This document shows, piece after piece, positions 2,658 to 8,296 of a stretch of 20,459 nucleotides of DNA. A program made the position numbers and the translations under genes. Under the pieces are notes generated by a model. The model made no database searches. It worked only from the letters and a program-made list of their open reading frames with translations, and had not been told where the DNA came from. The DNA is from a virus: the IMG/VR virus record IMGVR_UViG_3300031975_000022, positions 1 through 20,459 of that record; one strand, written 5' to 3'. Numbering within the stretch: position 1 is the first letter of the stretch; every line of letters begins with the position of its first letter.

Positions 2658-3671
2658 TTATGCAGCTATACCACCGTGGGAGTTGGAAACTGCTCCATTT
2701 GCACCGCTACCACTACTTAAATCACCAAAGTCTGTAGCATCCCCAGTTGATGCTATTGTAAAAAAATCAAGAGTATTATTATTATTGCCAACACTTGAAA
2801 CTGCTCTAGTAGAACTGGCAACAGACATACAATGTAAAGAATTTGAGTTACTTAAATTACCAAAGTCCGTAGCATTTCCAGTTGATGCTATGGTAATATA
2901 ATCAACAATATTATTATCTCCCGCACTTTCACCGCCAAAAAACATTCCTCTAGTGGTATTACTAGCACCGCCTCGAGATGGTCTACCTACAGTTAAGTTA
3001 CCAAAGTCTGTTGCATTTCCAGTTGATGCTGTAGTTATGTAGTCTATAACATCACTTGTACTATTACCTCCCCCAAACACTCCCCTAGTGCTTGATTGAC
3101 ATCCCCCTAATTGATACCTAGTAACTGATTGATCACCAAAGTCAGTAGCATTTCCTGCTGAAGCTATGGTAAAATATTCCATTCTATTATCAGAAGTTCC
3201 ACCTATTCTACCTGTAAAAACCGCCCTTGTTGAGTTTGATACACCTGCACTTGTATAAGATGTAGCACCTAAATCACCAAAGTCTGTAGCATTTCCTACA
3301 GTAGCAAAAACAATAAAATCAACAGTATTTACAAAAGAACTACCAGAATTTTCGCCACCTGCAAACAAACCTCTAATACTGTTAGAAGCACCTGCATCAT
3401 CATAACGTGATAAAGTTAAGTCTCCCCAATCAGTAGTGTTACCTGCAGAAGCAATTAATAATTGATCTAATACATTAGTTGCTGCTGCATACCCTGCATG
3501 AAAAATACCTGTAGCAGCTAAATTAGCCGCATTAGGCCAATTACCACCTCTAACATAATCATACTGATCTTGTAAGTTCCACACACCAGAAGCTGCACTA
3601 CTTACAAGTTTACCATCAGGTTCTACTTTTGTTGCGGAGATTATGTTGCCTGTCATTTGTTTGTACGACAT
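2658..3671 (-). CDS. Kelch-like six-repeat propeller protein, third paralogue (putative tail adhesin)
   Basis: The ATG at 3671 (MSYKQMTGN) is chosen because it overlaps the upstream stop as TAATG and has GGAGGA 8 nt before it. An ATG at 3692 would add seven residues without such a site. The 337-residue chain begins with an attachment-like segment (GVWNLQDQYDYVRGGNWP) that is paralleled by GVWSISTHYQ in the gene before it. Six repeats of about 47 residues follow, each with STRGVFxGG, then NxxDYITIASTGNATDFGDL. The chain ends GAVSNSHGGIAA, which looks like the first strand of a further repeat and could close a propeller ring with the N-terminal GIFHAGY strand. Unlike its paralogues, its HGG is coded CAC GGT GGT, so no Shine-Dalgarno is embedded, and no coupled gene follows. 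Host-surface binding is an inference. Confidence 0.85.
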   Translation of the reverse strand: MSYKQMTGNIISATKVEPDGKLVSSAASGVWNLQDQYDYVRGGNWPNAANLAATGIFHAGYAAATNVLDQLLIASAGNTTDWGDLTLSRYDDAGASNSIRGLFAGGENSGSSFVNTVDFIVFATVGNATDFGDLGATSYTSAGVSNSTRAVFTGRIGGTSDNRMEYFTIASAGNATDFGDQSVTRYQLGGCQSSTRGVFGGGNSTSDVIDYITTASTGNATDFGNLTVGRPSRGGASNTTRGMFFGGESAGDNNIVDYITIASTGNATDFGNLSNSNSLHCMSVASSTRAVSSVGNNNNTLDFFTIASTGDATDFGDLSSGSGANGAVSNSHGGIAA

Positions 3672-4615
3672 TATGCTAGTCCTCCGTGGCAATCTGAAAG
3701 AGCAGCACCCTTCTCCGAATTTCCAATTAAGTCTCCAAAATCTTGAGCATTTCCTGTTGATGCTATTGTAATATAATCTATAATAGCAATATCACCAGAA
3801 GCTCCATCACCACCTGCAAAGATACCTCTAGTACTATTGGCACAATTCCCAAGGAATATACCTCTGCGACCAACCGACAAATCACCAAAGTCTTGAGCGT
3901 TTCCTGCTGATGCTATTGTTACATAGTCCATTACATTGGTATCTCCATTACCCCCACCCCTAACGGCACGAATAGAATTAGAGACAGATTGAACCTGTTG
4001 TTTAGCCGCAGTTAAATCACCAAAATCAGATGCATTTCCTGCTGAAGCTATAGTTATATATTGAATAACATTTGTGTCGTTTGGAGAAGTTTCACCTCCA
4101 AGTATAAGACCTCTTGTTGTGCTACCACAGCCACTAGAGCTTCCCACTATAACTACTGTAGCATCACCAAAATCAGTAGCATTTCCTGTTGAAGCAATAG
4201 TTACATAATCTATAACATTAGTTTCCTGAGTATCACCGCAAAACACAGCACGGGTAGCACTTGATAAAGAAGCAGGACTATTTGCAGAAACCGTTCTATC
4301 CCCAAAATCAACAAGATCACCTTTTGAGTTTGGTGTAATAAATGAAATAGAATTAGCATCTGGGGTTGTTTTGGCTATAATACCTCTAGTTGACGAACCT
4401 GAACCCGAAGAGTTATTAATTGTTGCAGAAAGAGTTCCGAAATTAGTCTCGTCTCCCAAGGACGAAATATTAATAAATCCTCTTGCTACACTGTGGCCTC
4501 CAGTTCCACCCATAAATATACCAAGGTCTCCACCAGGAATAAACCCAGCCCAGCTTTGATTACCTATTGCTTGATAGTGTGTTGAGATGCTCCATACGCC
4601 ATTATGGTTGGGCAT
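3671..4615 (-). CDS. Kelch-like six-repeat propeller protein, second paralogue (putative tail adhesin)
   Basis: This 314-residue protein starts with MPNHNGVWSISTHYQAIGNQ, a short N-terminal element of the GVW..xxQY type shared with the next paralogue and probably used for attachment to the tail or to a partner. Six repeats follow. The first two are divergent (SSLGDETNFGTL, NSKGDLVDFGDR) and the last four are close to consensus (IASTGNATDFGDA and similar). The end, ALSDCHGGLA, is the conserved terminal strand. Its HGG codons (CAC GGA GGA) form the ribosome-binding site of the next gene, which starts in the TAATG overlap at 3671. The start itself uses the same arrangement from the gene upstream. 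A structural adhesin role is inferred from repeat type and position after the tail fiber. Confidence 0.85.
   Translation of the reverse strand: MPNHNGVWSISTHYQAIGNQSWAGFIPGGDLGIFMGGTGGHSVARGFINISSLGDETNFGTLSATINNSSGSGSSTRGIIAKTTPDANSISFITPNSKGDLVDFGDRTVSANSPASLSSATRAVFCGDTQETNVIDYVTIASTGNATDFGDATVVIVGSSSGCGSTTRGLILGGETSPNDTNVIQYITIASAGNASDFGDLTAAKQQVQSVSNSIRAVRGGGNGDTNVMDYVTIASAGNAQDFGDLSVGRRGIFLGNCANSTRGIFAGGDGASGDIAIIDYITIASTGNAQDFGDLIGNSEKGAALSDCHGGLA
3680..3685 (-). promoter_or_regulatory. Shine-Dalgarno embedded in HGG codons, drives 2658-3671
   Basis: GGAGGA on the minus strand is both the Gly-Gly codon pair of the conserved C-terminal HGGL and an excellent ribosome-binding site for the ATG at 3671. 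It decides that start over the ATG at 3692. Confidence 0.8.
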
Positions 4616-5175
4616 TATGAAAGTCCTCCGTGGGCATTAGATACACCAGTAGTGGCATTAGCAGGAGTAACTAAGTCACCAAAGTCCGTGGAATTACCTG
4701 CACTTGCTATGGTAATATAATCTATTACATTACTATGTGTGCCAGCGCCTTCATCATTACCTCCTGCATGTACACCTCTTGTTGAACTAGAAACGCCAGT
4801 AACATATCTTCTGTCTACAGTAAGATCACCAAAGTCAGTAGCATTTCCTGTACTTGCTATGGTAATGTATTCAACAGTTTGTCCTGAAGTTGGGCCGCCA
4901 GTAAAAACACCTCTAGTAGCACTTGATAAACCACAGCCTTGATTAGTAATTCTGCTTAAATCGCCAAAGTCAGAAGCATTACCTGTACTTGCTATTGTAA
5001 TATAGTCCATTGTATTAACTGAGTCGCTTGCACTTTGTGAATAACCACCTGCAAATACTGCTCTAGTAGATGAAGCTACCGCACTAGGATCACGAGCGAC
5101 AGTTAAATTACCAAAGTCAGTAGAGTCACCTGTACTTGCTATAGTAATATATTCTATTACATCTACTCTAGCCAT
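4615..5175 (-). CDS. Kelch-like propeller, second part of first paralogue (four repeats; probably continues the frame of 5175-5819)
   Basis: This 186-residue frame starts at the ATG in TAATG at 5175 (MARVDVIEYITIASTGDSTD), so it begins in the middle of a repeat. It carries four repeats and the conserved terminal strand GVSNAHGGLS. It lacks the N-terminal attachment element seen in the other paralogues (GVW..xxQY or a fibronectin domain), so on its own it looks like a fragment. A -1 shift at TTTGGGG (5184-5190) joins it to the preceding frame through LGDYIMARVDVIE, and the fused protein then has six repeats. Independent translation by reinitiation is also possible: GGGGA lies 7 nt before this ATG. 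The gene end contains the GGAGGA ribosome-binding site for the next paralogue. Confidence 0.8.
   Translation of the reverse strand: MARVDVIEYITIASTGDSTDFGNLTVARDPSAVASSTRAVFAGGYSQSASDSVNTMDYITIASTGNASDFGDLSRITNQGCGLSSATRGVFTGGPTSGQTVEYITIASTGNATDFGDLTVDRRYVTGVSSSTRGVHAGGNDEGAGTHSNVIDYITIASAGNSTDFGDLVTPANATTGVSNAHGGLS
4624..4629 (-). promoter_or_regulatory. Shine-Dalgarno embedded in HGG codons, drives 3671-4615
   Basis: GGAGGA within the codons for the terminal His-Gly-Gly-Leu lies 8 nt before the ATG at 4615. It has the same arrangement and nearly the same spacing as the site at 3680-3685. Confidence 0.8.
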
Positions 5176-5819
5176 TATGTAATCCCCAAACTAAATACAC
5201 CTCGTGTGCTACTACTTGCACCTCCATTAGAATTAGGATTGTGGGCAGTAGATGCATCACCAAAATCTGTAGCATTACCAGTTGAAGCAATAGTAATATA
5301 ATCTATTACATTAGATTTTCCACCTGAAGTATTCCCACCTGAATAAACACCACGAGTGCTACTAGCCATACCTCCCCTAGATGTACTAGTAATAGTCATA
5401 TCACCAAAGTCTGTAGAGTTACCTGTTGAACCAATAGTTATATATTGCAATACATTTGTACGCACGTCTGATGCACTAAATCCTCCACCTATAACACCTC
5501 TAGCAGCAGCAGGTGTAATACTATCAGTTGCATCACTAGCAGCAGATGTGCCATAAACATTAACTGCATAAGCTCTAAATGTAACAGCAGTACCTAAAGT
5601 AAGACTACTTACACTAATGGGAGAAGAACTACCTGTAGCACCTACACCATTACTAGCTGTAGCAACAAAACCTGTAATAGCAGATGTGCCTGTATTTGTA
5701 GGAGCAGTAAAACTAATACTAGCTACACCATCTGAACCACCACTAACAGTAACACCTGTAGGTGGATCAGGTGCATCTAATCCATCAGTACCAATAAAGC
5801 CACCGTTACGTCTTGCCAT
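5175..5819 (-). CDS. Fibronectin type III domain plus two kelch-like repeats: first part of first propeller paralogue
   Basis: This 214-residue frame starts MARRNGGFIGTDGLDAPDPP. Residues about 17-103 form a fibronectin type III-like domain (PPTGVTVSGGSDG near the start, FRAYAVNVYGTS near the end), common in phage tail adhesins. It then enters the propeller (ARGVIGGG, then YITIGSTGNSTDFGDM) and completes two repeats. It stops after STRGVFSLGIT, part-way through a repeat, without the terminal HGGL strand of the other family members. The stop overlaps the next ATG (TAATG). A TTTGGGG heptamer in the right phase (5184-5190) would let a -1 shift continue into 4615-5175, giving about 400 residues with the same six-repeat plan as the paralogues. 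A base undercall in the G run would look the same. Confidence 0.8.
   Translation of the reverse strand: MARRNGGFIGTDGLDAPDPPTGVTVSGGSDGVASISFTAPTNTGTSAITGFVATASNGVGATGSSSPISVSSLTLGTAVTFRAYAVNVYGTSAASDATDSITPAAARGVIGGGFSASDVRTNVLQYITIGSTGNSTDFGDMTITSTSRGGMASSTRGVYSGGNTSGGKSNVIDYITIASTGNATDFGDASTAHNPNSNGGASSSTRGVFSLGIT
5184..5190 (-). other. Candidate -1 ribosomal frameshift site (T_TTG_GGG) or broken-frame position
   Basis: Minus-strand TTTGGGG is read in the zero frame as AGT TTG GGG ATT ACA TAA, matching the X_XXY_YYZ slippery pattern. After a one-base backward slip the codons are TTT GGG GAT TAC ATA ATG, entering the frame of 4615-5175. A GAGGTG element 7 nt upstream resembles the Shine-Dalgarno stimulators of bacterial -1 sites, but it also encodes the conserved RGV. 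I see no strong downstream stem, only a weak GTAAT/ATTAC pair. A fifth G in the run would restore one frame with the identical product. Confidence 0.5.
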
Positions 5820-5821
5820 TG

Positions 5822-6187
5822 TTATGCATCATCCATAAGTTCAAAGCTACACAAGTATGTTAAGTCACTAGCTGCAGAAGCGGTAACTGCAAGTAAGTCT
5901 GTTTCATCTAAGTAAAATCCATTGTCTTTACCTACAACAACTAGTGTTGCATCAGCAGGTACAGATACTGTTTTAGCTATAGCTACATAGTTAGAACCAT
6001 TGTCTACACTTACTTCTACTGTAACATCAGCAGCATTAGCACCATCAATGTTTGCAATAATTAGTGTGTTTACTTTAGCAACTTTGTCAGCAGCTACATC
6101 AATAATATTTGCCCTACTTGTTGTTATTGCACCAGCTACTGTTGTAGGTGTAATGCTCGATACGTTAATTAGATTAATTACGGCCAT
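5822..6187 (-). CDS. Small virion-type protein (hypothetical)
   Basis: This 121-residue protein has alternating hydrophobic residues throughout, consistent with a beta-sandwich: NTLIIANIDGANAADVTVEV, then VDNGSNYVAIAKTVSVPADA and a C-terminal TYLCSFELMDDA. Short proteins of this type accompany tail and neck genes in many marine phages as virion components, but I cannot assign a specific role. The ATG at 6187 has AAAGGA about 8 nt upstream. It lies 12 nt after the tail fiber stop and 2 nt before the fibronectin/propeller gene, so it is in the same operon and may be an adaptor between fiber and adhesins (inference). Confidence 0.75.
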   Translation of the reverse strand: MAVINLINVSSITPTTVAGAITTSRANIIDVAADKVAKVNTLIIANIDGANAADVTVEVSVDNGSNYVAIAKTVSVPADATLVVVGKDNGFYLDETDLLAVTASAASDLTYLCSFELMDDA

Positions 6188-6199
6188 TTATTTTTTCCT

Positions 6200-8296
6200 T
6201 TATCCGAATACGATTGCCATAGCAATAGCAAAACCTTTAGTAGCTGAACTACCACTAGCATAAGTTTTTATGTCTGATGCTGGAATAGTCTTCATTGTTC
6301 CACCATCATTAACTACAAAACCATCTGCATCTGCTACTGTTATTGAACCGCCAACAGAGGTGTTACCATCTAATAAGTTCAATTCTGATGCTGTTGCTGT
6401 AACACCGTCAAGAATATTAAGTTCAGCAGCAGTAGATGTTACACCGTCAAGAATGTTTAGTTCTGCAGCAGTAGATGTTACACCATCAAGAATGTTTAAT
6501 TCGGCAGCGGTAGATGTTACACCGTCAAGAATGTTTAGTTCTGCACCAGTAGCAGTAACTGCAGTACCACCATAGTTTAAATTACCTGCACCTATTACAA
6601 TCTCGCCTGTACCTTTAGGCGTAAGTGCAATGCCTATATTAGTATCACCACCTGTAGCTGCAAGTATAGGATTACTACCACTAGCATTATTAGTTATCTC
6701 TAATTGATTTACGGCAGAGCTTGTTGTTTGAAATACTACAAGTTCATTACCATTAGCATCAGCTAGAAATCCACCATCAGCTATTTTAGGTGCAGTAAGT
6801 GTTTTATTAGTTAGTGTATCTGTAGAAGCTGTTGAAACTAAATTAACATTACCGCCTGTGCTTGGGAGTGTTAAAGTGTTTGAAGCCGCTTCAGAGTGTG
6901 GTGCTCCTTGAAGTATTTGTGCATGGGCATTACTAGACTCACAATAAAATTTAATTTGTGATTGTGCACCTGCATTCTTTAAATCAATTAATCCTGACTC
7001 TATTCCTACATTACCATCAATAACTACTTGACCAGAGCCTTTAGGTAATAATTTTAAATCAATATTAGTATCACCACCAGTAGAAGCAATCTGTACACCA
7101 CTACCACTAGCGGCATTTGTAACTTCTATTTGATTGACTGCAGAGCTAGTAGTTTGAAAAACTATCTGTTCATTACCATTTTCATCACCAATAAAATGTG
7201 CATCGTCAATAAGTATGTTATTAGAATTTGTATCTAAGTTACCACCTAGTTGTGGAGATGTATCTTCTACTACATTAGATAAAGCAGAAGATGTAGCAAG
7301 TCCTGAAACTATATTTGACCTTGTTATTTTTTTAAGGCCACCACCAGAAGTATCAACAGCAAGAAATACATCATCGTTGGCTACCGTACTAATTTCTGAT
7401 AAATCTCCTATAGTAGTATTACTTACATCAAGAATATTTAACTCTGCTGCAGTAGCTGTTACACCATCTAAAATGTTTAATTCAGCAGCAGTACTAGTTA
7501 CGCCATCCATAATATTAAGTTCAGCAGCAGTTGCTGAAATAGCTGTACCATTAAAATTAATAGCATCTAAGTATGCTGTACCATCTATGTATATATCTTT
7601 AAATTCTAATGAACTAGAACCTAAATCTACGTCATTATCTGTTGTAGGAAGTATAGAGCCATTGTTAAATGTAATCTGTGTTTCACCGCCAGTAGTAATT
7701 GTAATTACATCTGAACCACTAAATGCTATACTTGTGTTTGTATCACTATCACCAGATATGCTATCTAATTGTATGTCACCAGCATTAGTAAAGTTTGAGT
7801 CACTAAGGTCAAACGTTCCTGTAACATCTAAGTTACCACCTATAGATAGATTACCAGATATATCTACTGCACCATTTATATCAACAGTAGTAGCAGCAAT
7901 TTGTATTTCTGTATCAGCTACAAGATCAAGTTGACCATCGGCACTAGAATTAATATATATAGCGGTATCACGAAACTGTATTTTTTCTGAAGTTGCAATA
8001 AGAATGTCATCAGAAAATTCAAAGTAATCTTCATCTTCCATCCATTTTAAAACACCGTCATTTGTTTCACCATCAAAGGTTATAACAATATCTGTACCTG
8101 AAGTACCTGCACCAAACGTTAAAGCATGACCAGCCATTGTACTAATGGGGCCACCTTCACCTGTAGTACCGTCATGTGTGTGTCCTGTACTTGCTGCAAA
8201 TGCAGCTAATAGCTGATCAAATTCATCATTAGTGTGTGCTGCAGTAATGGTATCTCCATCTGCGTAAGTTGATTGTCTTGTGTATGTAGCACCCAT
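6200..8296 (-). CDS. Tail fiber protein with TAAELNILDGVT repeats
   Basis: This 698-residue protein begins with a conserved attachment-type segment (YTRQSTYADGDTITAAHTND, then THDGTTGEGGPIS) typical of marine phage fibers. The shaft is beta-rich (SGNLSIGGNLDVTGTFDLSD) and holds two clusters of the 13-residue TAAELNILDGVT repeat, near residues 252-293 and 579-642. A module of about 64 residues occurs twice (about 361-424 and 504-568), each copy running from GNE..VFQTTSSAVNQ to TGGDTNI and PKG. There is no obvious C-terminal peptidase or intramolecular chaperone motif; the chain ends GSSATKGFAIAMAIVFG. It starts directly after the stop of the tail tubular B gene (TAA ATG). It presumably forms a trimeric fiber, with the propeller proteins downstream as candidate tip or accessory adhesins (inference). 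Confidence 0.88.
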   Translation of the reverse strand: MGATYTRQSTYADGDTITAAHTNDEFDQLLAAFAASTGHTHDGTTGEGGPISTMAGHALTFGAGTSGTDIVITFDGETNDGVLKWMEDEDYFEFSDDILIATSEKIQFRDTAIYINSSADGQLDLVADTEIQIAATTVDINGAVDISGNLSIGGNLDVTGTFDLSDSNFTNAGDIQLDSISGDSDTNTSIAFSGSDVITITTGGETQITFNNGSILPTTDNDVDLGSSSLEFKDIYIDGTAYLDAINFNGTAISATAAELNIMDGVTSTAAELNILDGVTATAAELNILDVSNTTIGDLSEISTVANDDVFLAVDTSGGGLKKITRSNIVSGLATSSALSNVVEDTSPQLGGNLDTNSNNILIDDAHFIGDENGNEQIVFQTTSSAVNQIEVTNAASGSGVQIASTGGDTNIDLKLLPKGSGQVVIDGNVGIESGLIDLKNAGAQSQIKFYCESSNAHAQILQGAPHSEAASNTLTLPSTGGNVNLVSTASTDTLTNKTLTAPKIADGGFLADANGNELVVFQTTSSAVNQLEITNNASGSNPILAATGGDTNIGIALTPKGTGEIVIGAGNLNYGGTAVTATGAELNILDGVTSTAAELNILDGVTSTAAELNILDGVTSTAAELNILDGVTATASELNLLDGNTSVGGSITVADADGFVVNDGGTMKTIPASDIKTYASGSSATKGFAIAMAIVFG
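6371..6560 (-). repeat. Tandem 39-bp repeats in tail fiber gene (C-terminal cluster)
   Basis: About five tandem units encode TAAELNILDGVTS. The middle units are nearly identical at DNA level (tcagcagcagtagatgttac followed by accgtcaagaatgttta), while the first and last units are more divergent (GAELN, ASELNLLDGN). Copy number may vary by slippage. Confidence 0.9.
7421..7540 (-). repeat. Tandem 39-bp repeats in tail fiber gene (N-terminal cluster)
   Basis: Three units encode TAAELNI(M/L)DGVT-type sequence, and the last diverges into LDVSNTT. They show more synonymous divergence than the other cluster, which suggests they are older. Confidence 0.85.

Follow-up and report, generated by a model that had tools for sequence, protein, structure and literature searches.

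A tandem array of predicted kelch-type propellers in an uncultured marine podovirus, one of them split between two overlapping genes at a recurring loop

The stretch of DNA analysed here, which we call the window, is the 20,459-base record of an uncultured virus (IMGVR_UViG_3300031975_000022). Its tail protein of 579 aa shares ∼50% identity with the counterpart in Puniceispirillum phage HMO-2011, and this likeness, together with the order of the structural genes, places the window among the HMO-2011-like marine podoviruses. Four ORFs on the minus strand, named A1, A2, B and C, sit after the tail and fibre genes, the place taken in HMO-2011 by a run of annotated tail fibre genes, and are flanked by a conserved 121-aa gene (5822–6187) and by a gene at 1759–2595 that also lies near many related propeller loci. 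The fibre gene upstream (6200–8296) carries tandem TAAELNILDGVTS repeats.

Gene A1 (5175–5819, minus strand) is the first chain of propeller A and holds an FN3-like anchor, blades 1 and 2 and the first strands of blade 3; gene A2 (4615–5175, minus strand) is the second chain and holds the rest of blade 3, blades 4–6 and the closing strand, both assigned from the ORFs and their repeats. The two meet at a split junction visible in the sequence (5173–5190, minus strand; TTTGGGGATTACATAATG), where a run of glycine codons resembles a Shine-Dalgarno sequence, the stop codon TAA (5175–5177) overlaps the start codon ATG (5173–5175), and a T_TTG_GGG heptamer lies at 5184–5190. Gene B (3671–4615, minus strand; AlphaFold2 model with Foldseek kelch matches) and gene C (2658–3671, minus strand; ORF and repeats) each join a GVW-type anchor, about residues 1–57 in C, to an intact six-bladed propeller. 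Gene C starts at the ATG at 3671, and the TTG start listed for it at 3692 falls inside gene B. At the A2/B junction (4613–4629, minus strand; GGAGGACTTTCATAATG), found by pattern match, the codons for the closing His-Gly-Gly strand also serve as a Shine-Dalgarno sequence, and stop and start overlap by 1 nt; the B/C junction (3669–3685, minus strand; GGAGGACTAGCATAATG), found in the same way, has the same design. An earlier note on this DNA had described three propellers on different N-terminal adaptors, and we recover these as FN3-like in A and GVW-type in B and C, with the GVW..xQY element present in both of the latter. For its fibronectin III domain (A1 residues 18–98; 5526–5768, minus strand) the Pfam fn3 match is sub-threshold (E 3.3e-4, 21.2 bits against a curated cut-off of 25), but the model of a gene A orthologue does contain a separate N-terminal beta domain.

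The count of 18 repeats, falling as 6/6/6 once A1 and A2 are joined, was borne out by six D-F/W-G-D anchors per chain, spaced 45–50 residues apart, in all three propellers. Across ∼460 loci, complete ORFs held 6 repeats in 277 cases, 12 in 47, 11 in 30, 5 in 24 and 18 in 1, with other counts fewer, and since complete ORFs mostly hold 6 or 12 repeats, six is the unit. The pattern is far beyond chance, as the counts are quantised and a profile search of uncultured viral contigs with the repeat finds the units in hundreds of viral ORFs. On some of these other contigs 12 or 18 repeats are fused in one chain, with 18 in L034. Kelch domains are closed into a ring by their C-terminal strand. The window chains likewise end with a lone strand (GVSNAHGGLS, ALSDCHGGLA and AVSNSHGGIA) and start with the strand that would come next, as had been noted before, an order consistent with ‘velcro’ closure. 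The strand order in the gene B model, taken with the sequences, fits N- and C-terminal strands that share one blade, a match that concerns order only.

Closed propellers, also proposed earlier, were predicted for both proteins that we modelled. The gene B model (AlphaFold2 with 35 relatives; pLDDT 85, pTM 0.85) has 24 strands, arranged as six four-stranded blades in one closed ring, and matches the KEAP1/KLHL kelch domains over the full ring with a target TM of about 0.83–0.87 in Foldseek. An intact orthologue of gene A in L090 is predicted (pLDDT 87) to form the propeller seen in gene B together with an extra N-terminal domain, and its target TM reaches 0.91. The kelch domains of Keap1 and KLHL12 share with the phage proteins the six four-stranded blades, the Gly-Gly doublet, the conserved Tyr and a strand order that places the closing strand at the C-terminus (target TM 0.85–0.91). 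They differ in that the phage proteins are only ∼10–16% identical to them in sequence, carry phage anchors and include one ring split in two chains. In the kelch family a Tyr and a Trp are conserved after the doublet. Among 3169 phage repeats, Gly occupies the two doublet positions in 82% and 90% and Tyr occupies position 33 in 79%, but position 45 is Phe in 97% and Trp in 1%, so the Tyr is kept and Phe replaces the Trp. Pfam kelch models matched 0 of 35 members at E 0.1; for this reason, and because of the Phe in place of Trp, we call these proteins kelch by fold and not by sequence family. A search of solved structures by sequence returned nothing convincing.

All sequences compared are metagenome assemblies. 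The family is frequent in uncultured viral contigs, with hundreds of matches, but among ∼50,000 isolate phage records we found no close family member, with at most weak matches to S-SKS1 and a Klebsiella phage. Nine matches (L464–L472) lie in bacterial genome assemblies, mostly metagenome bins, and include an Epulopiscium single-cell assembly and two Patescibacteria-type bins. Repeats of the window type are assigned to PHROGs of unknown function, phrog_26444 in 34 of 35 members and phrog_19111 in 28 of 35, which could be annotated as kelch-like propellers. A fold and a likely role are thereby given to a large protein family of uncultured marine phages that has no assigned function in PHROGs and is almost missing from collections of isolates.

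Evidence bearing on that role comes from close relatives of the window. L085 is 98–99% identical to it in the tail protein (99%), fibre and upstream gene, whereas its gene B propeller is only 42% identical and its gene C, inside which the contig ends, combines an anchor of 84% identity with a propeller of 48% by best match. A conserved anchor with a variable, exchanged tip, the pattern looked for in receptor-binding proteins, is therefore seen between the window and L085, and in other comparisons as well. Variability over the 3169 repeats is highest in the B-C loop (columns 23–28, with indels) and in the D-A loop (columns 3–8), and these are the loops by which Keap1 binds its ligand. Propeller A of the window and that of its twin L084 differ at 52% of positions in the B-C loops, at 14% in the D-A loops and at 5% elsewhere; the zones were assigned by hand on the basis of the blade pattern, once the alignment had been seen. 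In the comparison of loops for diversifying selection that had been proposed earlier, the B-C loops are the most variable, at a dN/dS of 0.97, but their dS is raised too (0.51 against 0.13), and since silent changes have also increased, variation brought in by recombination is just as probable an explanation as positive selection. Conserved anchors, exchanged propellers and loop-focused variability fit tail adhesins, and on this sequence evidence the three ring-shaped proteins probably recognise host cells; we infer both host binding and a virion location for A, B and C.

The most unusual feature of the array is the split of gene A. The earlier note had recorded it but understated it, as it is a conserved stop/start junction of a recurring architecture and not a broken gene. 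The junction reads GTA TTT AGT TTG GGG ATT ACA TAA, with the ATG overlapping the last A, and falls in the B-C loop of blade 3. It is identical in L083 and in the diverged L084/L085, whose propeller A is 85% identical to that of the window and carries in-frame indels with the split kept exactly; because these diverged relatives retain it, sequencing error is ruled out as its cause. The loop that bears the split is the sole B-C loop of propeller A unchanged between the window and L084. Between the same two sequences the dN/dS of A2 is 0.75, which indicates weak constraint on the second chain.

The same cut is present in about 13 lineages, where it directly follows the Gly-Gly doublet of the B-C loop and is succeeded by a stop and an ATG. 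It lies in blade 2 in L180/L289/L299/L364, L332 and L356; in blade 3 in L315, L417/L482 (probably with the second L502 pair), L529, the first L502 pair and the window lineage; in blade 4 in L017/L341/L362, L109/L110, L340 and L395, a double propeller; and in blade 5 in L198/L294. In split pairs the first chain stops 2–3 residues past the doublet and the second begins just before the N-V-I-D-Y strand. In every pair with two complete chains the blades total six, so that two adjacent ORFs jointly encode the blades of one domain; L315 and the second L502 pair run off their contigs. Most junctions have the form TAATG, while TAA is directly followed by ATG in L417, L529, L356 and the second L502 pair, and gaps of 1, 3 and 14 bases separate stop and start in L395, the first L502 pair and L332; across 14 nt coupling would be poor, and L332 may use its own ribosome-binding site. 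Three unbiased scans yielded about seven split propellers among 340 distinct C-termini, all cut in the B-C loop, and further loci came from stop/start pattern searches, which are biased toward such junctions. The unbiased scans also turned up one break in the B-C loop without a good restart (L544), and the pattern-found loci include breaks outside that loop without a restart (L386, L364); these three are probably ordinary frameshifts or assembly errors. We found no report of split phage propellers in the open-access papers searched.

Two pairs of contigs, L017/L341 and L198/L294, each share a split propeller (84–88% identical) on different anchors, which indicates that both halves move as one module, and in both pairs the two halves are under purifying selection. 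As to how often the cut arose, the tree needs 11 changes, but a single clade of all splits is kept by the AU test (p-AU 0.86) with deep branches unresolved, so that a single origin is not rejected and the tree cannot count origins; recombination among repeats could also move a junction. Each split lineage has an intact propeller as its best outside match, in a comparison that held far more intact ones, and this, together with the four blade positions, favours several events without proving them.

We propose that A, B and C are three anchored kelch-type adhesins of an HMO-2011-like podovirus, with A made as two coupled chains that form one ring, a reading to which we give a probability of roughly 0.6. 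Each propeller would be held by its own N-terminal anchor, and its host-binding face would consist of the variable B-C and D-A loops. The Shine-Dalgarno-like Gly-Gly codons of the blade would help ribosomes that finish A1 at the TAA to reinitiate at the overlapping ATG. A1 and A2 would then co-fold into a ring with two non-covalent closures where an intact chain has one. We infer this reinitiation and also, from the blade sum, the purifying selection on both halves, which is weak on A2 of the window, and their joint transfer onto different anchors, the assembly of the two chains into one ring. Short gene overlaps are known to couple translation, and subunits of heteromers are over-represented among genes that overlap in this way (PMC10666635). 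The Gly-Gly codons at splits pair somewhat more strongly with the anti-Shine-Dalgarno sequence than other doublets do (−9.1 against −7.65 kcal/mol, p 0.027), and the true A2/B and B/C junctions use closing-strand Gly-Gly codons likewise (GGAGGACTNNCATAATG). On the other hand, 90% of ordinary doublets already reach −5 kcal/mol or below.

A full-length A chain could also be made beside a short A1 by programmed −1 frameshifting at the T_TTG_GGG heptamer, giving GVFSLG-DYIMARVDVIEY. The heptamer has the canonical X_XXY_YYZ form, stands in the right frame nine bases before the stop and is kept in L084/L085, but among relatives with the same split it is confined to the window lineage; L109 and L198 have no slippery heptamer, the second frame of L017 contains a stop directly before the restart, and the second chain lies in the same frame as the first in L417, L529, L356 and the second L502 pair. 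The related L417 and L482 even differ in frame relation although their split propeller is 64% identical, so the one thing that all share is that two chains are made. Downstream of the heptamer we found no stable structure (z −0.5 against shuffles), a feature that is not essential in all known cases. These frames and stops, with the lack of downstream structure, exclude frameshifting as the general mechanism; it could operate in the window lineage alone, an option that we hold to be improbable. Still less probable is a decaying gene, in which A1 would be a truncated adhesin and A2 dispensable. Breaks without a good restart do exist in the family (L386, L364 and L544), and the divergence of A2 would suit decay, but every cut with a restart lies in a single loop where the stop overlaps or adjoins the start, blade totals remain six, both halves stay open through 12–18% nucleotide divergence, and they transfer together between anchors.

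The adhesin role itself has a rival, namely that the propellers are structural or protein-binding parts of the virion, such as tail decoration, with no part in binding to the host surface. One of the kelch proteins of the giant phage CBB was found in the virion, where its role is unknown (PMC5259590), which speaks for this reading. The position of the array after the tail and fibre genes, like the tail fibre gene run of HMO-2011, the modular exchange of propellers over conserved anchors and the focus of variability on one loop set all speak against it, and we consider it unlikely.

The repeats and the predicted ring hold up, and a propeller-adhesin array is of a known kind; the recurring split within a blade is the unusual part. 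Predicted kelch propellers occur in other phages, as in vB_PcaM_CBB and in Burkholderia phage BcepSaruman, whose protein was the second-best viral fold match, but these are single chains from other phage groups, whereas the HMO-2011-like window has an array with a split member. Proteins in two pieces are likewise known from Aeh1 nrdA and the T4-like gene 43A/43B, whose products reassemble and work (PMC2988022). Those splits stem from homing endonuclease genes or from an insert that is not translated, while the window split is a stop/start overlap without any insert, and the phage propeller cut recurs in one loop of different blades. Fragments of Tachylectin-2 assemble non-covalently, as several chains, into five-bladed propellers and tolerate both velcro and intact-blade frames (PMC4735018), but they are identical and laboratory-made, in contrast to A1 and A2, two unequal natural chains cut within a blade.

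Recurrence at the same loop suggests that these viruses can assemble a single adhesin out of two interlocking parts. It offers natural cases, at four positions, of a closed repeat protein tolerating a cut. It also yields a model, open to testing, in which a structural motif's codons serve at the same time as translation signals. More tentatively, and with some doubt on our part, two-chain propellers may be a selected design of marine-phage adhesins: the cut always falls in the presumed binding-face loop, the Gly-Gly codons, which every blade has, would supply a ready ribosome-binding site, and the cut could be retained in whichever blade it arose in or moved to. If so, the design would place new chain ends at the binding site and open the halves to reshuffling. 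On one phage contig, two split propellers that differ from each other are direct neighbours (L502:5191–6767), and long runs of consecutive six-repeat propeller genes occur in L022, L023, L010, L039 and L041, with up to nine in L022.
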